Origin: Halichondria panicea
Lineage: Eukaryota; Porifera; Demospongiae; Suberitida; Halichondriidae
Direction of reading: 5' to 3'
Length of the DNA: 64,000 bases
Assembly (NCBI RefSeq): GCF_963675165.1
Contig: NC_087385.1
Coordinates: forward strand, 4,264,412-4,328,411
Positions 19,317 through 63,133 of the stretch are shown piece by piece. The notes below the pieces were generated by a model. That model did not search any database. It saw only the letters and a program-made list of their open reading frames with translations, and was not told where the DNA came from. How positions within the stretch are numbered: the stretch's first letter is position 1; the number at the start of each line of letters is the position of its first letter. The translations under genes were made by a program, and so were the position numbers.

Positions 19317-22300
19317 TCACTTGAGCTTTGCAAGCCTCTCTTGCTCGTAGTTCTTGATCATCTCCTGTTGGGACTGAGGGAGCACAGGTTGATAGCGGCA
19401 GTACTCCATAGTGAACTCCCCTTTGCCCTGTGTGTGGGGATGGGGGTGGGCGTTACCGCATAGTTATTATACTGTACATACATGTAAATGGCATTGCTAT
19501 GTACACTGATGAGATATGCAGACAGCAATGGCACTGGAATTCCAGACGGCTCTGTTTCTGACTTTGAAACTATATAATTATGTAGCAACTGCATAATATT
19601 ATCATTGTTAAAGCCCACTTTTGTAGCTTTTTAGCACTTGCATGTATTATACACAGTAGGCAAGCGTAGGTGTCATACAGGGAGGGGGGATGGGGATATC
19701 TTCCCTTGCTTTAAACTCCCCCCCCCCCCCTCTACTTTGACACCATGGCTATGATAAATTAACTAACAGTACCAGGAGTACATTAAGTAGTATATATATA
19801 TGTAGTTAAATGTATTAATGGAATGTAATCAATTTAATTACTGTAGCAACTGCTGCTTGCATAGGTATGGTGAGTGGTGCAGTGTGTCATTGCTTACCTG
19901 AGTGGCAGATCGCAGCTCAGTTGAGTAACCAAACATGGAGTTGAGAGGAACCTGCGTGTGGGGGTAGGTATAAGCATTAGTCGAATAGCAAATTAATGCA
20001 CTCACTTCACAGTAGAGGCTAAAATATCCTTCGGTTGCATCTGTTCCGTTGATGACCCCTCGTCTCTTGTTAATTCCCGCTATGACTGACCCCTGGAACT
20101 CGGTGGGTGCAATAACCTCTACAGTCATGATCGGCTCCAGCACTTGGGGCATGGCCTGGGAAAAACCTGCAATGGGAGGCGAGGTGATAAATTATAGTAG
20201 GCAGACAAATTACATGATGTAATAAGGGATTGGGCTCTTGTGTTCAAAATACTATGGGAACCTTATGGTCATGTGTACAAAACAGTAAACACACTGTGCT
20301 ACAAACACATGCAGTACTAGTAGAGCAAAGGCCAGCTTGGTAATGGCAACCACTACACAAGGAGACGTACTGGCTCTCACTGCTCCGATGGCCGCCATTC
20401 TGAATGAGAGTTCGTTAGAGTCCACTGCATGTGACACACCATCCTCCAACACCATCCGCATGCCTACGACCTTGTGACCCGTCAACGGGCCTGCATAGGG
20501 AGGAGAAGACTATAACTGATGATGCTTGCAAATAAGCACACCATACACAATCAGTTATTAAACTATAAAACATGCCTATCGTACAATAAGAAAATTTGGC
20601 GTTGGCGCATTTTACCAAACTTAAAACTTAAACTAAGCGATAGACGCACACGCACGTCAATGACGTAGTAACAACGCCCGAGATGCCAAATTAAAAACTG
20701 CCAATTCGGTTCAAATGGCGGCTTCTTCACCAAATATAACACGAAAATCACTGTTGAACAAAGATAATATATGCCAAACTTTCTTATTACATGTATATAT
20801 GGTATACAGTCCATGCAGCTAACCCAACTGCACAACACTCACCCTTGTTACAGATTTCATAGAAACCTTTCTCAATGGCAGGGATGAAGCTCTTGGGAAT
20901 GTTCATACCAACTGTCCGGTCCTCAAACTCCAGCTGAGTGAGGTCCTCCCCCATCATCGGCTCAAACTGACCAATTACACGACCATACTGCCCTGCACCA
21001 CCACTCTGCTTCTTGTGAAGGTAATCAAACCTGTATGTGTGTGTGAGGGGGCATCTTTAGATACACAGTGATTTGGTGTGTTCAACCCCTTAAGGTTTGG
21101 CATAATTTATGAGACTCAATGCCAAAAGTGTGTACATGCAGGTAAGTGCTTACTGTATAGGCTGTGAGATGGTTTCTCTGAAGGCTACTTTAGGCTTGCC
21201 AGTGACACAAGGACAGTTGTACTCTGACTTCATACGCTGCATACATGCATGTGCATGTGATTGTCACATCATTCTGTGCACTGCTTCATACCTCAGCATA
21301 GATTTCCAAATGAAGTTCTCCCATTCCTGACATGATGGTCTGCAGTGAAAAGTAGTCATTTACGTATAAGGTCCAGAATCAACGCTGAAAACCCACAAAC
21401 GCTGTCAATGTTTTAGGGCTTCAATTGGACCACATTTCTAAGCGTAAACTTCTCTAGTGTTTAGTGTTAGTCCTTTCTTCCCAGCCCGAGTGTGACAACA
21501 GTACTTGGCATTGCATTGTGTTGTGACTGAATACATATTCTTTGACATAGCTAGCACACAACAAGCACATCTTAATCTATAAAAACATGGAAAACTAAAT
21601 AGTCAGTTACACACTTTAGCACTAAAAATGAAGTTTGTTATCCTGATATACGTCTGGGCCGGTTTGCATTCTCAAGGTAAGGTAATTGAAAGTAAAATAG
21701 TTTTGCATGACATTACTTCTGTGCAGTGTTGGCTATGGTCAAGGAATGGCAGTGCTCTCCTCCAGACAGAGACGGTCTAGTCCACTTCCCTGACCTCCCA
21801 GTAAACAGGGGCCAGATATCGGACGCTGAGGTAGTCACACACACCAAGGCTTTCTTCATATTCACCACCATGCCCAACTGTAGTGGAACCATCGTCGGGG
21901 CAGACTTTTGCTATGTCTTGATGAGCGAGACAGACACACAACAGAGACAAGTGTTTCAGCTCGTGAAATTAGACAAGTTAGGAGATAATTTTATACCTGA
22001 CCAGAACTACACAGACACAATCTTCACTGCTCTTCCTATAGACAACACAAAATGTACACAACAACCGAATGGTCGCAAAGTATGTTGTCAGAGAAACACA
22101 ATGAGTACAGGACTGAGATTGGAAGGTGACCTTTCTTTTGGTATTGTAGCACAGAATGTTGAGATGGTAGACTACCCACTGCTGACTTTCGGAGTGTCAA
22201 GGAAAGATCGTCTTGTTCGGTCGTACAGAGTGGACTATGGACGTCTGAGCTTTCCTGATGATGTGTTCTCCAATGTCTACAATAGCAGCAACACTATAGA

Positions 22301-25300
22301 GACAGTGTCCAGCTCACCTGTGTTTCGAATGCTCATCGGTATGTATAGTATATTTACTTGTAATAATTTTGTTTGATATCTAATTATAATTATATGCAGA
22401 GCCTGACACTAACAGTACATCTCTAAGAGACTCAGAGGCTACCTCTACTGTAACAGTGAACCTGCTAACAGTCATCTGGTGCTTAGTGGCAGTGATAGGC
22501 CTGGAGAGTGTAGCTCTAGTAGCCGTTATAGCACTAATGATAACTGCTATGGTGAGCTACAAACGACTAAGAAAAGCCCATTTGTTAAAGTGCCGTCAAT
22601 ACAAGAAGACCCCCTCCCAAGAAGGCGTGGTACCAGCTAAGAGTCAGAACATAATCTATTCACTACCGGAGCCCACCCCTCTACTACCAATGAGAGTTAT
22701 GTACAACAATTCCATCAACAGCCAGTTGAACACCTCCTACGATCTGGAGCCAGCCTCTACACAAAACTCATCAATAGCAGACGAGCAAGACTATGACGAC
22801 ATTGTTGATACTATTTAGCATATTTTGCATTTGTATATGTACTTGTAGTATATGCTAGAATGACGTCATCAAGTCATACTTGGCAGTCACTTTTAGTTTT
22901 CCCCAACGCTGCACTATTTATGCCACCCTGTCACAAACAACGAGGTGTGGTTTATGTTATAGTTAGAACATGGGCATGAGGTATCTATGTGTTATAGTGT
23001 CCAAAAGCTCGAGGGCTTTAGCCCGAGGGATGAGGGACACTATAACCATAGATACCGAATGCACATATTCTAACTGATTTAGATCCCAAAACCTATTGGC
23101 TACTAGAAATGCATTAGCTTATAGCAACAGTCAACCTATATAAACAGCCAACCTAGCAACTGCATCATTATTCTTTTGAAAACTAATACAATGTATCTGA
23201 AGTTGGCATCTCTGTGTCTCTACTAAATCTGTGGTTTCTATTCAAGTTAACCTTGGACCTCAGTTTCATGGACAAAATTATAGTCCTAGCTCCAAGCTCC
23301 ACCCACAAAACGGAAACATCCAGCTCCTCCCCCAGTTTTTCAGCAAACAAGCCCAGCACAATTCCCAAGAAACGAGCGGCTCGTACTACTCTCACAAAGC
23401 GAAAGGAAGACACCTATAAGCTATAATTTGCAGCAAACAAACCCAGCAAACGAGTGGCTCCTATACTACTCTTGAACAAAGCGAAAGGAACTTTAGGAAG
23501 AAGCCAAAGCTAGAATCCCAGCACTTCCATACATCCAGCTCCTCTCCCATGCAGCCTTGCAGCAAAAAAGCACAGCACACTGCCCAAAAAACGAGCGTCT
23601 CCTACTACTCTCGAACAAAGTCAAAAAAAGAAACTAGAGCTTCTCTCTTTCATTCTAGTTCTGTTATTATATTACTAGATAAAGCTATACAATAATTTTT
23701 ATGTTATTACATGTGTATCTTCTTGTAAATCACAATACAATGTACAATGTTGTAGTTTGTAGTCCAGAGCAATCTATAGTACCAGTACTATAGCTCATAG
23801 TTCCCTGCTAAATACACTCAAATGAGATCTAAATTATGGATAAGTTAGGCCTTACCCATTGGATTGGCCTTCCAAAAATTGGTCATTGTTGACTGGGCAA
23901 CAAGGGAGTTAAAGGGATATTAATGCAGGTAGATCACATGTTTTATAGCCCGACATGGCATCATTAGTTAGTGGTTCTACGTGTAGGGAATGAATAACAT
24001 TTTAAAGCGACCTCAAAAATTTAACATGAACGTTTGATATACCGTAGCAAGATATTTTCATTGGTGCAGATTTTCGTATGAACTACCCGATTAAATATTT
24101 GGTATTCTAACAGCTCAGAGTGACGTAGAGCCTATTGCACCACAATCATTTCTTTTCGGATATATAACCCGCTATATGGGAGTAATTTATGCCACCCCAG
24201 CATAGTCATACATGCTTCACTATTCAATTCACCTACAGACAAGCTTTCTATCAGCCATCTTAAAATTTCGGACCAAAACATTCAACCACTCGTGTAAAAT
24301 CGTAAAATCATAAACAAAACCCTGCATATAAGTTCATTCCTGATCATGTGACCTATATAGCTAATGAGCCTATACAGCCAATGACAAATGCAGTCATGTG
24401 ACTGCACGTTAAGTGTGCAATAAATTCTTATTGCTAAATTTCGTGATTCAAACATCATTAAGTCATCTAGCCATCTCAAAAGTGCAGGGTAGCTTTCTTG
24501 AATAGGGTGGTTTTCAGCTTCAGCTTGTGCATTACGTAACCTCAAGCATTATTGCATCATTCGAGTGCACCAAAACACGTTAGCTAGCTAGCTAATGTGA
24601 TATGGTTTGTTGAGCCTATGGTTAATAGTCCGATGTGCATGGTGGTTCTCCACCCACTGTCAGCACTGCCACTTGCAAATAACCAGGGGAATTTAAGCAT
24701 ATTGAGTCTGTAGCTGAGTGGGTTACTTTATAAAGTACGATGAAACGTAAAAGAATTAAAGTACTCAACAAGAGAATTAACTTACATGTATCTACACAAA
24801 CCACCGCAACAAGAAATGATGGAGCTCTACTTTCTACTGCTTTGCTTTGTCTGGATAGATCTAGGTAAGTATTCAGCTAAGCGTCCTTATATGCACACAA
24901 ACACAGTAATGCAAAAGTCTACACAAATGTCGTCAGGCATGTACAATACATTTGAAACTCTATAATTATTAGGTGCCTGTCAAGATACACAATGCTCATC
25001 TCAAGACAGAGATGGATTCCTGTACTTCCCTGACGTACCAGCTGACAAGCAACACATTGCTGATGCAACCACAGTCACGCTCACTAAAGCTTTCTACATT
25101 TTTGAAACCGTCCCTGACTGCAGCGGGAATATAGTGGGAGCAGATTTCTGCTACAGTTTGGAGAACATATCTGACACCAGTGTGAAAAGAGTACTACAAT
25201 TTGGAAAGTTTGAAAAGAGTGGAGATATTTTCACGCAAAGTCCTGATTTCGCAGAGAAAACATTTTTTGCTATACCTCTGGATCATACTAATTGCGTACC

Positions 25301-28300
25301 TATCTCAACTAACACTAGCAACTGTTGTCAACGAATGACTACCAAGTCGGGACTACTGAGGTTAGTGGATGGAGAGCCACTAATAATAGGAGTCCTCATT
25401 CAGAACAATGCTCAGGACTACCCACTACTGAAGTTTGGAGCTACAATGACACAGTATCATACAGTGACACGCATAGTGGACCTGGGGAAATTGGCCAATC
25501 AAGAAAATGAATTTGCAAACACTTTTGACACTTCCAACACAAACACTAATACAGTGATTCTACCCATGCTACGATTTGTTGTAGGTGAGTAATTGTGCCA
25601 ACACAATAGTACATGTAACGTATCGTATTTAATATTTCTACAGAGCCTGATAATAAGATAGCTGTGGAGGACTGCGTGGACACTACGTCTATAATAGCCT
25701 CAATCGGATCACTGCTAATTACAGAGACACTCGTACTAGCTGCTTGTATAGTGGCTCTTATTGTAACAATCATACTATACAAGAAACAACTGAAAAGAAA
25801 ACCAAAACAATCCCCACCACCTACCCCCAGAAATCTCCTCACACCCACACCAGGACACGGCTCGCTCCCACCTACCCCCACCCCCGGACACGGCCCGCCC
25901 CCTCCTACCCCCACAGAGCTCTCTACACCCACACCAGGACACAGATTGCTCCCTCCCGGCTATCAGAGCCCTATTGTACCATCCCACCCAAAACCTAGGT
26001 ACTCCAACGTAACAGAGAACCAAATCAGCCACCCACATCAGGACACAGCCCACTCCCACCTACCTACACCTACACCCACACCAGGACACGGCCCACCCCC
26101 ACCTACCCCCAGAAAGCCCCCCACATCAGGACACGGCCCACCCCCACCTACCCCCAGAAATCCCCCCACACCAAGACATGGCCCATCTACTCCCAGAAAG
26201 CCCCAAACGTCAGGACACGGCCCGCCCCCTCCTCTCCCCAGAGAGCCCTCTACCCCCACACCAGGACACGGCTCGCTCCCTCCCTCCCACCAGAGCCCTA
26301 TTATACCATCCTACCCAAAACCTAGGTACTCCAACGTAACAAACAGGAGCACCAGTACATGTAGCTCGAACGAGCAGGTCAACGATAACCAGGATGGATA
26401 CGAGTACATTGACCGGTGACTACACCACACAGAGTAACTATATAACCCATACTGAACATTATAAGCTCTTACGTTATATATTATTACCCACCTCTTTGCT
26501 CTCATCATCAAAGTGCACTCTGAATGTCGGGTCCTCTCTCTGAAAGCGATTGATACCCTTAGAGAAGGCGTCCAAATCGTCCTGTTATGGGCATAACATG
26601 CATGATGTTTTACAGTGTATGTCGCATAATCAGTGGTAGTGTACGAACCTTCTTGGCAGGTTGTATGGCGAGGGAGATCACCGGGTCTGGAACATGAATG
26701 GACTCCTGCCGTGAGTACGTGGTGTAGACATAGCAAAGACATAGAAATGATGCACTAATGGGAATTAGACAATTGTTTTCACCCAAACAAAACATTGGTA
26801 TGAAGGCGTTGGCTACTGAAATTGACATAATGTACAATAAACAAAGGCTCACCATAGTGTATTTGGGAGCTGACTCAGCAGTAAAGGTGTCCCCTGAGGC
26901 ACAGTCGATTCCAAACAGTGCACAGATGTCTCCAGCGTGTGCTTCTGTGATCTCCTCCATCTTATCGCTATGCATACGCACCAGACGAGACACTTTGACC
27001 CTCTTTCCTGTCCGAGTATTGACGATATTGTCCCCTCGTTTCAACGAACCCTGGTACACCCGCATGTACGTCAGCTGTCCAAATTTTCCAGCCTACAGTA
27101 TAGACACGCATTAAAACAATAATTATCACGGGCAGTTACCGTTAACCATAACACACCTCTAGCTTAAAGGCTAGACTGACAAACGGCTTTGATCCATCTC
27201 TCAGTGGGCTCATGACAACCTTCTCAGCATTGCTGCATGTAGATGGAATGGAGTTTAGTTTAGCTAGATACCAACGGGGGGTGGGGTGACATCAAAGTGA
27301 TCAATCTACTTACTTGTCATTGTCAAATGCAAAATTGTGTACTTCTGACGGAGTGGGGAGGTAGTCAAGAACTCCATTCAACAGTAGCTGTATAAGAATA
27401 GTCCATGCATTGCTTAGACGGCCATTACAGACTCACCTGAACACCTTTGTTCTTGAGAGCTGACCCAAGGAACACAGGTGTGAATGCTCTCTTCAACACA
27501 CTCCTCCTAATGGCAGCCTGAGTGGGGAGGGGGGGGGGGGAGGGCAATATGACGTTGAGAACTTTTAATGCAGTAAGTGGCTGACCATCAATTCCTCACT
27601 TGTTGGCTCAATGTCACTGAGAAACTGCTCTCCAAGAACCTCATCAACATTAGCCACACGCTCTGTGAATAAGTCATATCTGTTGAGCGATTGAAGCTAA
27701 CAGTGCATCTAACTGACCAATCAATTCTCTTCTCTTCTCTGTAACAATACCCTTCATAGTATCCGGAATATCTCCCTCAATGGTCTCAGATCTGCCAGGG
27801 GGGAGGGTGGATAAATGAGGAATAAATATTTAATTACCCCAAATTTCCACCAAAAGTGAAAGCCTTGCTGCTGACGACATCAATTACCCCCTCGTGTCCT
27901 CCCTCCAGACCCAGGGGTACATGCACTGCAGCTGCATTGTGGTGCAGCTTGGCCCTGCACAATGCAAAAGTGGACTAACTAACCTGGTTAAGGTGTGTAA
28001 CTACTCCTTACCTCATTTGTGAGATCACTCTATCTGGGTTGGCGCCTTGTCTGTCTAATTTGTTGATGAATCCTAAACAAGGCACACGATAGCGATTCAT
28101 CTGTCTGTTCACAGTGAGCGTCTGACTCTGTACTCCACCCACTGCACACAGAACGAGTACAGCTGCGTCCAGCACCCTCAGTGCTCTCTCCACCTCTATA
28201 GTGAAGTCTACATGTCCTGGGGTGTCAATGATGTTGATAGCTGTGTCCTTCCAAGTTGTGTAGGTGGCTGCTGACTGTAAGGGGGGGGGGGATAAAAAGG

Positions 28301-35255: not shown

Positions 35256-38200
35256 ATGAGTAAGAAGAGTGTTGTAGGGACTGTTTCTCCAGAAGACTCT
35301 TCTAAGCCCAACAGAGAGTCCTGGGTCAAGCCAGACACCGTCACTCCTGGCAGGGTTAAAAGCCCTCCACACACTTCAGTCCTAAAGTGAGCTCTTACTC
35401 AAGTGAACGTATGCGTACATCAAGGGTGAACATGAATATTGCATTGCATACAGGTTTAATAGTTGAAAGTTGAAGTGCATACCCCACAACACACTGTGTG
35501 TTTCTTTCTACTAGATCTAGTGGTCATAGTGGCTGCACTTCTAACACTCAACCAACTTGAAATCCTCTGTACTCAATATGGGTGATAGCTAAAATAGTGC
35601 TAATTAGTAAAATGTACACATTTATCTGATGTCTATTTATCAGCTTGTAAGCTGCTATGAACAAACAATAACATTAATTCTTCTAACATTCCAGATATGA
35701 CCGGGAAAAACACAGTGTGCCAGGCAGGGACGTGTTTGGACTGATCAGTGCACATCCAGAAACAAACCCAACGCCAAAGAAACCAAGAAAGACAAGTGCA
35801 AAGCTTTCACCATGGGAGCAACTTCAGGAGAAACTACTTATCAACTGGGTCAATTCCCAAATTGACAGCAGAGGAATGAAGGTATATCAATAAGAAATCT
35901 CTTTGCCAACAACGGGAAATATGACTATCTTTTACTCTTGATGCATGCAGGTATCAAATCTAGAAGGGGACATTAAGGATGGCGTTGTGCTGATCACCCT
36001 CATAGAGGTGCTCTCGGGAAAACCAGTTACACAAAAATACAAGAAGCAAACAATGCATCGCTTGCAACATCTGGAGAACTTGAAAATTGTACTGCAAATA
36101 CTGAAGGAGGAAGGCATTAAAGTAGTCTCCATGGGTAATTAATTAGTGTACCAGCACATGAATATTGTAGACCAGGTGCCATGCAAGTAATCAAATTCAT
36201 TAATGCATACATGTACATAAACCAGTTACACAAAACTGAAAGCATAACCTATACTCAAAGTACTCTAGCTGTCAATTCATTATTAGCACTCACACATTTC
36301 CTATATATATTATATATGTAGATCCTGCTGATGTGGTTGATGGGAACATGAAGCTGATTATGGGCCTACTCACAGAGCTGATCCACCACTACCACATAAC
36401 TGTGACAACACCAGAGAAACCTGCTACCACAACCAACCGAGCAGCATTTTTGGAATGGGTCAAAGCGGCTCTCCCCAACAACAATATAACCAATCTCACT
36501 ACATGTTGGAACGATGGGCTGGCTCTATCTGCCTTGGTGGACTATTGCATGCCTGGTCTCATCCCAAACCACGCCTCTCTCGATCCGAATAAACAGCTAG
36601 AAAATGTCAAGAATGCTATGGATATTGCTGAGAAGGAGCTGGGTGTGCCACACATAGTTGATCCTCAAGACATCGCTTGTAGAAAGCCAGATGAATTTCT
36701 CATTATGGTGTACTTGGCCTACTTTTGTAACCCTCGACTTTTAGGCCAGAAGAAACTTCTTGATTGGGTGAACACTTTCCTCCCTTCCAAAAAAATAACT
36801 GATTTCGGCAGCTGCTGGGAAGACGGTCGAATTTTGTATGAGCTTGTTCATGCAATCTTACCAAGAGCAGCAACCCCTTTGGATATGCTAGAAGACCAAT
36901 CACCAGCCAAACTCAAGCAGCAAGCTAAAGAGTTAGCAGAGAAAGAGCTGAGCATAAAAGCACCAAAGAGCCTTGCAACGGCTTCAGGAACAGACTTCCA
37001 ACTGACACTGATCATGTTTTTGGGACTACTTCAAGCAAAGGTGAAAAGTCCCATATCTCCCGAAACTCTGTCTGCAGAAGGCACTGGCCTCACCGGTACG
37101 AACGTGGGTGAAGACGCTCATCTCACCATTTTGGGTGACATTCCCTCGAACGACAACCTCTCAGTAATTGTGACTGAACCAGGAGGCTTGTTGCTGTACA
37201 TTGAAGAGACCTCCCCTTGCTCCTACTTGTACACACCTACAGTACATGGCGAACACACAGTCGATATCACATTTTACGGACAACCTATTGCAGGGTCTCC
37301 TTTTCAAGTTGTTCATGTGGACAGTGAGCTTGTTAAAAAATGCCAAGTTTCCGAACAGATCAACAAGGCTTGTGTCGATACAACGTTGAATTTTACTGTC
37401 GATTGTAGTCAAGCAGGTTTTGGAAATGTACATGTTACTGTAGAAACCAAAGAGGGAGATCATATTCCAGCGCCAGTCGTACACAAACCAGGAGACAAGC
37501 ATGAGGTAACCTTCACTCCGACATCAATCGGAGATCACCTTCTACACATCACCTGGAATGGAGTTGCTCTTCCAAGCTCTCCTTTTAGCTGCCGAGTCAT
37601 CAATCCAAGCAGATGTGAAGCAAGTGGAGCTGGTCTGTCAAATTCAATTCTTGGTCGGTCTGCAATGTTTCACATTTCTACAAATGGTGCGGGAGAGGGA
37701 AGTCCTTCAGCCACTGTCTCTGGGCCATCAGAGCCGGTCGATCTGATCCTCCTCTCAACCAAAGACGGAACATACACATACGAGTACACTCCCACACAGA
37801 AAGGTAGCTACCACATTGATATCAAGTTCAGTGGGTTTCCGGTTCATGGCAGCCCCTTTATTGTTAGACCACAGGCGCCTACAATCGCCAGCGGATGCTC
37901 AGTGAGGGAATTTCCCCGTACATCAATGCCAAACAACGAGCCAATATCGATTCTTGTGAGTATTGATGGAGCAGACAACGAAGCTGAACTCGTTGGAACA
38001 TTCATTCTCGAGGAATCAGATGAAGAAGAAGTGCAGTGTGACATTGCTCAAGTCGGCGGGGAAGAAAATCTTTACAATGTCTCATTTGTACCAAAGGAAG
38101 TTGGGGTGTATACTGTACACATTCAGTACGGAGGTCTAGAAATTCCCGAATGCCCACTCAACTTTGCAATCAACGATCCTTCAAAATGCATTGTCGATCA

Positions 38201-39503
38201 CGATTCAAGCAAACTATACCATGTTGACAAGGCAGTCTCCTTCCAAGTCGGTACAGAAAACGCAGGTTATGGAGTACTTTCTGCACAAGGAGAGGATCCT
38301 TCTGGTCAGAATTTCAAACTGAAAGTTACCGAAAACAGTGACGAGCTAGATATTTACACGGTGTCATTTGTGCCCGAGCAGGGGGGAAAACATCAAATCA
38401 CTCTGCTCTATGACAACCGTCCTCTAGCGGACATGCCCCTCTTCGTTCAAGTCGAAAGCAACACCCTAGACAATATCGTCCTGAGCAAACCAGTCAGCCA
38501 ACATGGATACGTTCTTGTTGACGAGCAAGTGAACTACAAGATGTTCGCTCCAAGCAGAAATGAGAGTTCTTTTGCTGTGACCTGCCTGGGAATTAATACC
38601 GGAGCCATTCCTAAAGTGGCCATTGAGCCAGTCGGAGAAGACAGTTATAACATCAGCTTCAGTGGTTCTCATCCAGACGAATACAAAGTGCAAATTACAT
38701 ACAACAGCCAACAGATCCCAGGCTCTCCTTTTACAGTGAATGTGAACCAGTCACCTGAACACAACCAAGTGGTCTCCTTCGATCACGTTGTTCCCCTAAA
38801 ATTAGGCAAGTCAATTGAGCTCACTTTTGATGTAAGTCTTGCTGGAGGTGCAGGCAGTGGAACACTCACCGCTAATATTTCTTCTACCTCAAAGAATTGG
38901 ATCATTCCAACCGTTAACGAGATCTCCCCAGCCTTTTTCAGAATCAGTTTCGTTCCTCCCCGCGAGGATAGGTACACTATCACTGTGTACTGGTACGGAA
39001 AACAAGTCAAAGATTCCCCGTTCATTATTGACTTCAAACCACAAGTAAAACCACCAAAAGTATCGATTGAGTTCGTACCCGATCCAAGTGAACGACGACT
39101 CCTCTCAGCCACTGCTATTGGACAAAAAACAAAAGCGAAACCGAAAGTAAATGTACAGCAATTCGAGCCTGGAAAATACCAGCTGAGTCTAACCCCAACT
39201 CAAAGAGATGTGTACCAACTTCATGTCTCCTGGTTCCAGCAACAAATTAGAGGGTCTCCTTTCACCCTTGATCTCCAGACAGCACCCCCTGTTACCGGTG
39301 GGACTGGTGGTGTTCGAGAGATTTCAGCACTAGTAGTGGGGGAGAAATCGGGGCCTCAACGAGCTACCATGACCGTCAGCAAGAAGACAAATGTAGCAAC
39401 CATTGTGTTCGAGGATAGACGAAGAGATGTGTACAAAATTTCAGTGTATCTTAACAAGCGATTAGTGAGAGGTGCTCCGTTCAAAATTAACGTATCTGAC
39501 TAA
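35256..39503 (+). CDS. Filamin-like actin-binding protein with three CH domains
   Basis: Cytoskeletal actin cross-linker of the filamin superfamily. Four exons (35256-35386, 35695-35881, 35951-36134, 36322-39503) give 1227 residues; the last exon alone encodes over 1000. Three calponin-homology domains are visible: CH1 from ~residue 81 (EKLLINWVN, DIKDGVVLITLIEVLSG), CH2 from ~205 (AAFLEWVKAALP, CWNDGLALSALVDY), and CH3 from ~305 (KKLLDWVNTFLPSKKI, CWEDGRILYELVHAI). About eight filamin/ABP280 immunoglobulin-like repeats follow (GSPFQV, LPSSPFSC, GSPFIV, GSPFTV, DSPFII, GSPFTL, GAPFKI). A Ser/Pro-rich N-terminus precedes CH1. Classical filamins have two CH domains and ~24 repeats. Three CH domains recall Drosophila Jitterbug, so this is likely that branch and not the filamin A/B/C branch. 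Confidence 0.93.
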
Positions 39504-46595: not shown

Positions 46596-53124
<6,529 letters not shown>

Positions 53125-56459: not shown

Positions 56460-56637
56460 ATCATACTAGATCTACTAGACTGCAAGACAGAATTAAGAAA
56501 GAGAGAGCTGAGCATGCATGAGATCATCTGCTAACATTCTTGTGGCTTGACCTTGTCTAGTCTAATGTCACCAAGTAGTAAATAGATCTAGATCTATTAT
56601 AATCTATAGCTAGATCTAGATCTACATGTAAATCTAT
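56460..56637. promoter_or_regulatory. Divergent promoter kelch / ZU5-death gene
   Basis: 178 bp between start codons. It includes repeated AGATCTAGATCTA near 56585-56625. A duplicated, diverged copy separates the second pair at about 61560-61755. Confidence 0.5.
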
Positions 56638-59600
56638 ATGGAGCCTAAGAAAAATGAATGCTCTGCTGAAGCTCCCAGTCAAGCTGTTGGACAACCAGAT
56701 TTTTATGGTATCTCTCCTAAAACTGTTATTTATGATACTGGAGACTCATTCAAGAGGTTTATGAAAAGTCATACCAAAACACTTACTAAAAAGATGATTT
56801 CGAAAAAGATTATAGAAAAACAATTTAGTAAAGTGATCAAACAGGAGTTGGGCTTGGACTTGCTTCTGGGAAGAATGGAAAAAATGTCTCTGGTGGAATT
56901 CGTGACTTACCTTCGATTGTTACTGACTATTTCTAAATCTGAAGAACAGGAAACGGGTGCAAAAATGGGAGAAGAAAAAGGAGAAAATTCTTTGTATGTA
57001 AAAACTACTCATATCAAAGACGATACAATAAAACTAATGAGAATCATGAAAGGCTCACTTGAAGCAATGAAACCCTCACCTGGTTCAGAACTACATGCTG
57101 TAGTTGCTGAGTTTGTGTATTTAGTTTCTCAAGACAGCAGCGATCAAAGTCAAACCACTGTTTCTCAAGATGACTGTGATCAAACTAATTCTCAAGATGG
57201 CAGCGAAACCATTGTTTCTCAAGACATCGGTGTTCAAAGTCGAACCACCGTTTCTCAAGACAGCAGCGATCAAAGCCAAACCACTATTTCTCACGATGGC
57301 AGCGATCAAAGTCAAACTACTGTTTCTCAAGATGACTGTGTTCAAACTATTTCTCAAGACGGCAGCGACCAAAGTCAAACCACTATTTCTCAAGACATCA
57401 GTGTTCAAAGTCAGGACATTGTTTCTCAAGATGACTGTGTTCAAACTCAAACCACAGCACAACAATTATATGTAGATTTACCACCATCAGAAGGACAACT
57501 TGAAAATGCTGTGTCTCACTTCTTCACAAATGAAGGTGGGACACTCTACTCTCCGTTGCATGGTGTCACTGTGACCATCCCCCCCAATGCCATCCCAACA
57601 GCCTTCTCCAAATTCTTTCTCTCCATGCACTTCTATCTACAACCGTTCACTCTAATGGATGATGCAGACCCTTGCTCTGTGATAGTGTGGTTACATCAAG
57701 ATCCTCGCTTTTATTTTCTTGAGGAGGTCACTGTCAAAATTCCCCACGCTGCCGTAGTCGATGACTCCCTCTGTGTATTGACCTGGGGTGAAGACAAACA
57801 ATGGAATCTCAACACTGAAGTCCTAGCTGATTTCAGCGATGGATACCATGCCGTCATAAAAGTCAAGCATTTCTGTAGGAAAGTCGTTGCAAAAAGAAGA
57901 AATCCTGAAAGAAAATGCAAAAAACAAACAGGAAGTAGTAAACATTTGAAGAGATTGAAAAGTGGCAGTTTCGGGACGTCCATTGATGAAGGCGTGGCAA
58001 GTCTCACTAACAGTACAGAGGTTGATCCTAATACAAAACCCCCCCCTCATCAAGATGTTTTGGAAAAGAAAATGAAAAAGAAAACGAAAAAGAAAACGAA
58101 TAAGTTGAAAAGTGGCAGTTTGGAGACGCCCATTGATGAAGGCCTGGCAAGTCTCACTAACAGTACAGAGGCTGATACCAACATAAGACCCCTCCCTCGT
58201 CAAGATGCTATCAGTATGGAGTGCGACTCCTCGGCTGTGCCAATCTCATCACAGGACAGTCTAACAGCTGAGGAAAATGAGTCTGGTTTCAAGTACTGCA
58301 TAGCCTGCAGCATGCCCTCTGATCGATCAACGGGAGACTGGAAGGTGCAATTTGCAGCTTGTCAAAGCAACCCCACAGGAATCTCGGTAAGTTGAAACTG
58401 AAATTATTGTAGACTAACTCATATACTTGTGGCCACAGTTGTTGAGGAAGTTAGCAGAGAAGGTATTTGGCGGAAATGCCTATTTCTATCAGGTGGAGGA
58501 TATTAGAATCAAAGGGGGCTACTTTGAGATGTGTCCAGAGACTTGGAGTGACAACATTTGGAAGATTGATGCGTCCGAGAAAGAAGCATCTGTGAGTACA
58601 AATTATGATATTATGCAGATACTGTACTTTCGTTGTTCAGTGATGTGTTTGTGTTATTTGATTCTACAAAAGTAATTATTATATATACAGATATTTGAGG
58701 AGCAGATACTGTCTGTTTCAGAATGCGCAGACATATCTGAGCAGTCCTTTCCTAATCTTCCCAGACTGTGTTATGATGTGTATCACTTGAGTGAGAATGT
58801 CCATTCCAAGCTGCACTGCTGTATATATGCACAGAGAGCGCGCACTGATAACAGCTGTACACCCCGCTTCATTATCACATCCACTACTAAGAATGGTAAT
58901 TAATGTACACACATGTCTAGCAGCATAATTATTATACCTTGGGTTCGCATACGAGGTATACGGTAGTGTGTGTGTGTGTGTGTGCGTGCGTGCGTAGACT
59001 GCTCTACAGCTGCTCAATGATAATTGAAGTGCAAGCAATAGTGTCTACACAGGCTTCTAGTCACGATTATCACATCCACTCCAGTGGAAAAGATACCCAT
59101 TACTAAGAATGGTAATTAATGTACACACATGTCTAGCAGCATAACTTTAGAATTTACCTACTGTCTATGATGTGCATAATGTAACTAGATATACTGTGAT
59201 GCACTAGCATGTAATAGGGGTGTGGTAAACAAAATTGGGCATGGCCAAACATTTTTCGGCGCGTGTAAATCTCCCCCCCCCCCCAAACTTTGTATCGATG
59301 AAACCCTGCAGCTAATTTGATTTTATGCAGGCCACTAAACTTGTTTCTACTCCTAGGTAAGAAAGTCGTCACCACCCCCTATCTTTATGGCATTGATAGT
59401 GACATCATCAGAGTCCTTACTCACCAAGGCCAGAACATTATTCTTGATACTCTAACGTCTGAGCACCTCAAGTTCCTCGCAGACATCAGTCTCCAGTTAT
59501 CCGACACTCAACAGCTGTGCAAAGCATTGAACATAGAGTACAGGCCTAATGAAAAAGAAGATACCTTTACAGTTCTCGGCAAATGGGTAGTCAGTCAAGG

Positions 59601-60078
59601 CGGAGCCGCTAGTTTGATACGACTCAAGGAGCAACTCAGTGCCATAGATATTGTCGACATTGCTGTGTGTGAGGACGAAGACTCGAATGTCCTGCTCAGT
59701 TCACACCTAGAAGATTGTTTCATTCTGGACATTTTCATAAAAGGTTACACGGCATCAAGTTATACAGCCCTGCTGAATCTGTCTACAAAGTTGCAAAACT
59801 GCTGGAGGATAGTTGGCTGTCTACTGGGAATCTTACCTGAAGAGTTAGACAAAATTGATCTACCGGAGGAGAAATTGTATAATATTATCGATCCGCCGTT
59901 ATACCAACTGATTTTCAATTGGCAGAGGAGAGAGGGGAGGGGAGCTACCTTCGGGGCACTCTTCAAAGCCATTCATCGAGTGTACCACCATCAACCATTT
60001 CTAGTTAATGATGCTCATCTATTCAGTATACGTTATGTTAATAAACATCTACCCATCCCTGTACATGTAGTTCATTAA
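56638..60078 (+). CDS. ZU5 domain protein with two C-terminal death-like domains (copy 1)
   Basis: Probable intracellular signalling adaptor. Four exons (56638-58386, 58439-58591, 58691-58895, 59357-60078) give 942 residues. Residues ~35-100 form a helical, possibly death-fold, segment. Residues ~163-275 are a Ser-Gln-Asp repeat array. A ZU5 domain follows from ~290 (GGTLYSPLHGVTVTIPPNAI, VIVWLHQDP, VTVKIPHAAV). Basic linkers contain two near-identical blocks (LKSGSFGTSIDEGVASLTNS). A region of ~150 residues (CIACSMPSDRSTGDWKVQF onward) stands where UNC5 and PIDD have a UPA domain, though I cannot confirm that. Two death-like domains end the protein (first ~DISLQLSDTQQLCKALNIEY to GKWVVSQGG; second ~LQNCWRIVGCLLGILPEEL to FNWQRREGRGATFGALFKAI). 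No membrane segment or signal peptide is visible. Confidence 0.85.
57124..57462 (+). repeat. Coding tandem repeat, SQD-type units
   Basis: Imperfect 24-36 bp units centred on GTTTCTCAAGAC, encoding SQDSSDQSQTTV-like peptides, roughly ten units. The paralog at 61756 keeps only about one unit. Confidence 0.85.
58896..59356 (+). repeat. ZU5-death intron 3 with internal duplication of exon end and donor
   Basis: ACTAAGAATGGTAATTAATG plus TACACACATGTCTAGCAGCA at 58886-58925 recurs at 59102-59141, and ATTATCACATCCACT recurs at 59068. The exon 3 end with its GTAATT donor therefore exists twice, ~215 bp apart. A fragment of the interspersed repeat family lies between. Confidence 0.75.
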
Positions 60079-61558: not shown

Positions 61559-61755
61559 CTGAAGACATGCAAGAGATGGACTTCCCTAGCCCTAGGCGCT
61601 AGGCCTTGGGAAGCTAGCAAAGTAGGCAAATTTCATTTTGACTCAGGGATACCTCATAGGGAAGATCCCTCTACGACTGCATTCTTGTGGCTTGAACCAT
61701 AAAATAAAGGAATGCTGGCAGTGACTTCTAGTACATGTACATGTACGTAGGTACA

Positions 61756-63133
61756 ATGGAGAAAAAGAATAATTCTGCTGAAGCTGCTCCCAGTCAAGCT
61801 ATTGGACACTCAGGTTTAGAGGAGGATGATCCCCAGCCCAAGGCTCAAGGCATTTCACACGAAAAAGTTATTTTTGACAGTGGAGAAGACTCATTCAGTA
61901 AAGCAATGAAACTCTCACCTGGCTCAGAACTACACGCTGTAGTTGCTGAGTTTGTGGTTTCTCAAGACAGCAGTATTCAAAGTCAATCAGCAGTACAACC
62001 AATAGATAGACCACCCAACCTATCACAACATTTTTGCCCACCAGAAGGACAACTGGGAAATGCTGAGTTTGGCGTATTCACAAATGAAGGGGGGACCCTC
62101 TACTCTGCACTGCACGGTGTCACTGTGATCATCCCCCCCAATGCCATCCCAGAAGCCTTCTCCCCATTTTCTCTCTCCATGCACTTTTATCTGCAACAAC
62201 CGTTCACTCTAATGGATGATGCAGACCCTTGCTCTGTGATAGTGTGGTTACATCAAGATCCTCACTTTCATTTTCTCGAGGAGGTCACTGTCAAGATTTC
62301 CCATGCCGCCGTAGTTGATAACTTCCTCTGTGTATTGACTTGGGGTAAAGCCAAACAGCTGAATCTCAACACCAAAGTCCCAGCTGAATTCAGCGGTGGA
62401 TACCATGCTGTTATCAAAGTCAAGAATTTTTGTCCAAAAGTCACTACAAGGAAAAGGAAACGAGAACAAAGTGGAAGTAAGGATTCAAAAAAAGTGAAGT
62501 TGGAGTCTACGGCCGGGGAAGATGAGTCTGGTTTCAAGTACAGCATAGCCTGCAGCATGCCCTCTGATCAATCAACGGGAGACTGGAAGGTGCAGTTTGC
62601 AGCTTGTCAAAGCAACCCCACAGGGATCTTGGTATGTTGAAACTGATTATAGACTGGCCCACTATGCTCATTGTTTTTACATACAGTTGTTGAGGCAGTT
62701 GCCAAAGAAGCAAATTGGTAAAAATTACTCTCAGGCGGATGATGTTGAAATCAGAGGAGGCTTCTTTAAGACATTTCCAGACACTTGGAGTGATAGCAAT
62801 TGGGCTGTGAGGCCGGCGTTGGTCAGTACAAAAGTCACAATGTACATGCATGTACAGCAAGATCATGATAATTATTGGAGTTTGTTCTCTATGCTGCATT
62901 TATGTGTTGATTTGTGATTTTATAGATATCTGAGGAGCAGATACTGCGTGTTCCAAAACATAAGGCGGGACAGTCCTTACTCTACCCTCCCACTCTGTGC
63001 TTTGAGGTATCCCACTTGAGTGAGAATGACCATTCCAAGCTGAGGCAATGGATAGTTGCGCAAGGAGCAGTCGTTGTTGATGGCAATACACCCTCCTTAT
63101 TTATTTCATCCACCCCACCATCTATAATGAAAG
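61756..63133 (+). CDS. ZU5 domain protein, copy 2 (3' end not found in window)
   Basis: Paralog of the gene at 56638. Exons 61756-62631, 62687-62821 and 62926-63133 encode 405 residues, and phase 1 continues past the GTAATT donor at 63134. The start was chosen by alignment with copy 1 (MEKKNNSAEAAPSQAIG versus MEPKKNECSAEAPSQAVG); an in-frame ATG 21 nt upstream also exists. Relative to copy 1 it lacks ~105 residues between DSF and AMK, nearly all SQD repeats, and one basic linker block. The ZU5 domain (GGTLYSALHGVTVIIPPNAI) and following region are intact. Death-domain exons are absent up to 64000. They may lie beyond the window, or the gene may be truncated. Confidence 0.78.

Follow-up and report, generated by a model that had tools for sequence, protein, structure and literature searches.

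Two receptor-like genes within a GFM1 intron of the sponge Halichondria panicea are probable kinase-less members of a family whose ectodomain exon also lies upstream of tyrosine-kinase exons

Background

Receptor tyrosine kinases (RTKs) are present in large numbers in sponges, and many sponge receptor kinases have ligands that are unknown. Elsewhere, ErbB3 is a kinase-inactive RTK co-receptor that retains a pseudokinase, and the paired inhibitory and activating receptors of the immune system have shared ectodomains attached to different tails. Symmetric 1-1 exons, as used by extracellular modules, can be shuffled without breaking the reading frame. PMC8662651 describes ectodomain shuffling in the receptor tyrosine kinases of holozoans, and PMC8347583 describes EphB6 as a kinase-inactive RTK co-receptor. 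The subject of this analysis is a pair of genes, A and B, that lie in a single intron of GFM1, the gene for mitochondrial EF-G, in a 64,000-nucleotide (nt) stretch of the genome of the demosponge Halichondria panicea (contig NC_087385.1, positions 4,264,412 to 4,328,411 of the forward strand; this whole stretch is referred to as the window). Both are probably kinase-less members of a family whose ectodomain exon is also found upstream of tyrosine-kinase exons.

Like the holozoan RTKs, A and B have a signal-peptide-like start, a cysteine-containing ectodomain exon in phase 1-1 and a hydrophobic membrane stretch, and they have relatives in the same genome that lie upstream of exons matching the kinase family PF07714. 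They differ in that neither has a detectable kinase and that their ectodomain is absent from Pfam; as judged from the predicted proteins, the two fall outside the definition of an RTK, having no detectable cytoplasmic tyrosine kinase domain. The resemblance to EphB6 and ErbB3 is one of possible working only: these too are receptors related through the ectodomain to active kinases while lacking activity themselves, but they retain a pseudokinase, whereas A and B have none. As in the paired immune receptors, a shared ectodomain is combined with different tails, and a relative on C10 ends in IQYAQLRL, which fits the pattern of the immunoreceptor tyrosine-based inhibitory motif (ITIM); by contrast, A and B contain no Pfam immunoglobulin or lectin domain and no convincing ITIM.

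Relatives of the ectodomain and their link to kinases

The genome to which the window belongs (131 Mb in 39 contigs) was searched for relatives at the protein level. With A as the query, the search returned B (E = 2.1e-44), C10:2176269 (2.9e-5) and C17:5501240 (2.6e-4), while in reciprocal searches A was recovered from C17:5501201 (9.6e-5) and from C10 (4.5e-5). The ectodomain family occupies eight places in the genome, A, B and six further ones. Within the group containing A and B (group 1), the full-length and stop-free places are A, B, C10:2175936 and C17:5501201, C17:4256342 has one in-frame stop, and those at C17:5496780, C17:5492636 and C10:2164421 are partial. The ectodomain exon encodes approximately 200 residues in phase 1-1, with the motif CxGxxxGxxxCY and a later CC; the same phase can be read from the splice contexts of C10, C17:5501201 and C17:4256342. 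Of the six ectodomain cysteines that A and B share, C10, C17:5501201 and C17:4256342 all retain five; for the fourth, these relatives have a counterpart only at a shifted place, which slightly lowers confidence in the family.

Two of the group-1 ectodomains, C17:5496780 and C17:5501201, are followed downstream on the same strand by kinase exons, the first of which match PF07714 at 6.1e-19 and 8.6e-21, respectively. These exons lie within about 2 kb of the ectodomain and membrane exons at C17:5496780, and come after a repeat of about 2.9 kb at C17:5501201. No second signal or membrane exon between these and the kinase exons was noticed by eye, although no dedicated test was made. Gene order and strand suggest that in both cases the ectodomain and the downstream kinase belong to a single RTK gene. 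The searches show that the ectodomain of A and B is homologous to ectodomains upstream of kinases in the same genome. The original prediction of a shared ectodomain with swapped tails is thereby placed on wider evidence, namely six further places, two of them upstream of kinase exons.

A more distant branch of the family is probably present on contig 4, where the ectodomains appear homologous to those of A and B. The ectodomain at C4:2562593, used as a query, gave at least 49 matches, 38 of them at an E value of 1e-3 or better, and all 38 of these fall on contig 4. There the branch forms a cluster of about 210 kb. Between 2.546 and 2.758 Mb, every one of the 12 listed plus-strand kinase loci starts after an ectodomain match, at a distance of 1718-3320 nt; the kinase totals are minimum values, 129 of 1749 candidates having been scored. 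In a rotation test of this spacing, for which the band was set from the data, none of 20000 rotations reached 12 of 12 (the mean in the band being 2.8). Alignment of the contig-4 profile with that of the A/B group by hhalign scored 34.5, higher than any of 200 shuffles (maximum 19.2) or 200 reversals (maximum 17.7). Furthermore, searches that started from C17:4256342 (9.9e-4) and from contig 4 (0.029) met at one place, C17:3.1735 Mb.

Several observations weigh against the assignment of A and B to a kinase-linked family. As a query, B reaches other contigs weakly (E = 0.017 and 0.096), the similarity of the C10 and C17 sequences to A is modest (19-28% identity), and C17:4256342 carries one in-frame TGA. 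The ectodomain match at C17:5496780 covers the C-terminal half only, and the repeat of about 2.9 kb separates C17:5501201 from its kinase, so that no fully intact group-1 RTK is proven. For contig 4, the hhalign probability is 53% (E = 1.3e-4) with a five-member profile and 6% (E = 0.006) with A and B alone, and the contig-4 seed was picked for its likeness to A (E = 1.16), which introduces a selection bias. Likewise, the motifs in the tails of A and B are short and are candidates only, and the hydrophobic stretches of both proteins are long enough for a membrane hairpin.

The same distribution bears on a possible, though rather unlikely, alternative in which A, B and the C10 relative form a stand-alone branch of adhesion or recognition receptors that act via cytoplasmic kinases without RTK partners, the kinase link being a side branch. 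No kinase was found for A, B and C10, which make up three of the four group-1 members that are full-length and free of stops (at C10 the search extended over about 3.5 kb downstream), and genome searches with the two tails returned no relatives. However, such a branch sits poorly with the two C17 members that are followed by same-strand kinase exons, and with the probable contig-4 branch, in which each of the 12 listed plus-strand kinase loci follows an ectodomain exon.

A number of further sequences were encountered around these loci. The repeat of about 2.9 kb is a tandem array (L014:4798-7713, that is C17:5502797-5505712) between the membrane and kinase exons of the putative RTK, and for about 900 codons it has no stop in any of the three plus frames. 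At L016:3843-4415, exon 2 of a group-1 ectodomain is interrupted close to its end by an in-frame TGA, and an open, tyrosine-rich tail exon follows; this copy may be either a pseudogene or a truncated form. Another receptor-like family, with a different cysteine-containing ectodomain (QIWRP, GDIIGI), was seen at L061:3831-4409 and L065-L071 (C17, C6 and C10). Its copy at C17:5494831 has membrane and tail exons that by eye resemble those of its group-1 neighbour, a possible ectodomain swap. The profile of this third type of C17 ectodomain (C17:5494831 and its relatives) gave no convincing match to the A/B group (2.4%, E = 0.02) and a weak one to the contig-4 group (29%, E = 5.9e-4); it may be very distant from the A/B group or unrelated to it. 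Matches to PF07714 in long single open frames are densely clustered at C10:1.70-1.94 Mb, C2:7.25 Mb, C15:4.01-4.03 Mb and C1:15.5-17.4 Mb.

Comparison with known domains

No Pfam or NCBIfam family was found for the ectodomain of A or B in a profile search to an E value of 10 within HMMER's filters, and among PDB sequences nothing scored better than 0.28 (best E values of 0.76 and 0.28); no known domain exceeded a curated cut-off. Relatives were also sought in prokaryote and viral contigs, where none was confirmed, and no description of the ectodomain was found in the literature within titles and abstract openings, most subscription journals lying outside the coverage. The profile search for a known domain had been set beforehand as a refuting test, and it matched no known domain in Pfam, NCBIfam or the PDB sequences. 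The description of A and B as belonging to an unknown family therefore holds with respect to these libraries; that of a stand-alone orphan pair does not, given the relatives in the same genome.

Gene structure and genomic context

With the Escherichia coli protein as the query, EF-G exons were detected between 28657 and 19898, running along the minus strand; of the 704 residues of EF-G, the blocks in the window span 7-675. Among PDB sequences, the best match of the exon at 26865-27080 is mitochondrial EF-G (1.9e-28, the next other EF-G being at 1.6e-15), and the host gene is therefore taken to be GFM1. The exons on either side of 21340-26491 read, once joined, as uninterrupted EF-G protein, so the coordinates predicted for the 5152-nt intron are exact; the remaining gaps between EF-G blocks are approximately 350 nt or less, in agreement with the prediction that the other introns are mostly far smaller. 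The location of A and B in this intron is unremarkable, because nested genes are common in animals: PMC10282587 reports 2432 of them for Aphrocallistes vastus (12.4%) and 3358 for Amphimedon queenslandica, and PMC8527503 reports 2357 for a ctenophore.

The features of the locus are as follows.

21340..26491, minus strand: intron of GFM1 (mitochondrial EF-G) hosting genes A and B; 5152 nt, GT-AG, GTGGGT...CTGCAG
21578..21583, plus strand: TATAAA, possible TATA box of gene A, 50 nt before the ATG
21628..21676, plus strand: gene A exon 1, signal-peptide-like; 49 nt, phase 1 donor
21727..22338, plus strand: gene A exon 2, ectodomain; 612 nt, phase 1-1; cysteines 26, 68, 78, 126, 136 and 137
22400..22818, plus strand: gene A exon 3 with stop; 419 nt, hydrophobic stretch within residues 234-277, then tail
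24729..24734, plus strand: TATAAA, possible TATA box of gene B, 87 nt before the ATG
24816..24864, plus strand: gene B exon 1, signal-peptide-like; 49 nt, phase 1 donor
24973..25584, plus strand: gene B exon 2, ectodomain; 612 nt, phase 1-1; cysteines 24, 66, 76, 124, 134 and 135
25644..26419, plus strand: gene B exon 3 with stop; 776 nt, hydrophobic stretch within residues 235-270, proline-rich tail
25844-25915 (period 33) and 26027-26248 (period 45), plus strand: two repeat arrays in the coding tail of gene B

Each gene was modelled with three exons on the plus strand, encoding 359 residues in A and 478 in B; each of the four introns has GT-AG borders and the reading frames are closed, which, together with the codon bias of exon 2 described below, bears out the prediction of two plus-strand receptor-like genes inside the intron. 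The stop codon of B lies 72 nt from the GFM1 donor. Near gene A, the TATAWA pattern is expected 0.19 times per 160 nt.

By hydropathy, both proteins have one N-terminal and one internal hydrophobic stretch, which fits a single-pass type I layout. The internal stretch, as measured by window, is 44 residues long in A and 36 in B, exceeding one usual membrane segment, and is also compatible with a hairpin; it can be read as one membrane segment, but given its length this is a reading only. Of the predicted signal peptide, ectodomain and single membrane segment, the overall layout is thus in keeping with the hydropathy, while the single segment is less secure. The internal stretches of A and B have a glutamate at the same aligned place, for which a membrane hairpin, a buried charge or the start of a membrane segment are candidate explanations.

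A palindromic (foldback) repeat of about 135 nt, resembling a miniature inverted-repeat transposable element, has two copies in the window (22951-23085 and 51403-51534) that are 92% identical; the first sits between genes A and B.

Common origin and coding constraint of A and B

The proteins of exon 2 are 41% identical between A and B and have six cysteines in common, which align with one another. Across 200 aligned codons, differences at positions 1, 2 and 3 number 78, 75 and 127, a codon-position bias which indicates that exon 2 is protein-coding in both genes. Synonymous changes are found in 48 of the 81 codons for identical residues, and 119 of the 200 aligned residues differ; this divergence is of the kind expected for two genes that separated long ago and stayed under selection at the protein level. 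The codon pattern of GADFCY, with at most one mismatch, occurs twice in the window against 0.02 expected. A third match to the VGADFCY pattern, at C2:5578667, was rejected as a chance occurrence, since the protein searches with A and B did not include that place and its surroundings do not look like an ectodomain by eye.

The original prediction derived a tandem duplication from the equal lengths of the first two exons, which are indeed 49 and 612 nt in both genes. The exon-2 protein alignment, however, requires compensating gaps on both sides, and because these indels cancel, the equal length of 612 nt is partly coincidence and was discarded as proof of a recent duplication. Evidence for a common origin is instead provided by the identical phase and the 41% identity. 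In addition, the genome-wide protein search with A scores B at 157.5 bits and no other place above 29.9 bits, and this gap supports the interpretation of the two genes as tandem duplicates.

These data also bear on whether A and B are decaying duplicates, open reading frames without present function. Some of the relatives on C17 and C10 are indeed fragments, and one has an in-frame TGA, but the 359 codons of A and the 478 of B are free of internal stops and frameshifts, their splice sites are GT-AG, and the divergence of exon 2 is biased to third positions even after so many residues have changed. Decay is accordingly considered very improbable.

Tails of A and B

No Pfam kinase was found in exon 3 of either gene, and four sponge kinase peptides had no match in the window at an E value of 1e-3 (tblastn). 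The tails are dissimilar, as predicted: A has several tyrosines, and B has PPTP repeats and ends in GYEYIDR. In A the tail is about 85 residues long and contains six tyrosines, including Y274 at the membrane edge; in B it is about 210 residues long, proline-rich and built largely of repeats. Relatives of the exon-3 proteins were not found in the genome, the best other E values being 0.47 and 0.74, although the repetitive tail of B may hide relatives in such a search.

Some spacings between copies in the B tail (43 and 104) are not multiples of three, so that the copies do not all share one reading frame, and neither of the other two plus frames is closed by a stop across the repeat stretch. 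For both reasons, the fact that this tail is open says little about constraint. YxN, a Grb2-like motif, is few in number, occurring as YNNS in A and as two copies of YSNV in B, both within the duplicated stretch. When the ITIM pattern, [IVLST]xYxx[IVL], was sought by eye, A had only VSYKRL at the membrane edge and B had none; neither sequence thus appears to contain a convincing ITIM. The tail exon after C17:4256342 contains YEYSYIDP, a very short likeness to the GYEYIDR of B.

The structure of the tails is relevant to the suggestion that A and B are membrane decoys, competing for the ligand of the RTK members through proteins whose tails would be free of signalling constraint. The failure to find tail relatives would suit such a role, as would the B tail, made up largely of repeats, some in different frames, in a stretch open in two other plus frames. 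Nevertheless, a decoy needs no tail, and A retains an open one (about 85 codons, several tyrosines) that no detected tandem array overlaps. Although of low probability taken singly, the decoy role is one of the two proposed here for A and B within the kinase-linked family.

Possible function

If A and B are kinase-less members of this family, they would sit in the membrane as receptor-like proteins derived from an old tandem duplication, and might bind the same kind of ligand as the kinase-bearing members, or pair with them. Their tail tyrosines and proline motifs could then be phosphorylated or bound in trans, making A and B co-receptors, or A and B might act as decoys; both proposals are put forward tentatively, co-receptors being about as probable as independent receptors and decoys slightly less so. 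Such a ligand-binding module, common to A, B and the kinase-bearing relatives, would have other outputs attached to it. The evidence bearing on this mechanism is anatomical in kind.

More speculatively, the genome may contain a 'one ectodomain, many outputs' system, in which a 1-1 exon of undescribed fold has been joined to kinases, to tyrosine and proline tails and to an ITIM-like tail, and in which A and B would tune the kinase-bearing members; this doubtful extension draws on the analogy with the paired activating and inhibitory receptors of vertebrate immunity. A single-exon ectodomain accompanied by a kinase in some places of one genome and not in others offers a handle on the assembly of the early-animal receptor repertoire, and A and B, as small three-exon genes at one locus, would be convenient for testing modulation of the kinase-bearing paralogues.

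Other observations in the window

A single open frame of 1087 codons at 36240-39503 encodes CH domains and filamin repeats. Two similar open frames with ZU5 domains are present at 56632-58395 and 61732-62640, and between them lies an open frame with a Death domain (59302-60078). A silicatein-like pattern of the CGxSYAF type, a marker of siliceous demosponges, was found once (control 0) and reads QCGSSYAFGAIGALEGANAL.

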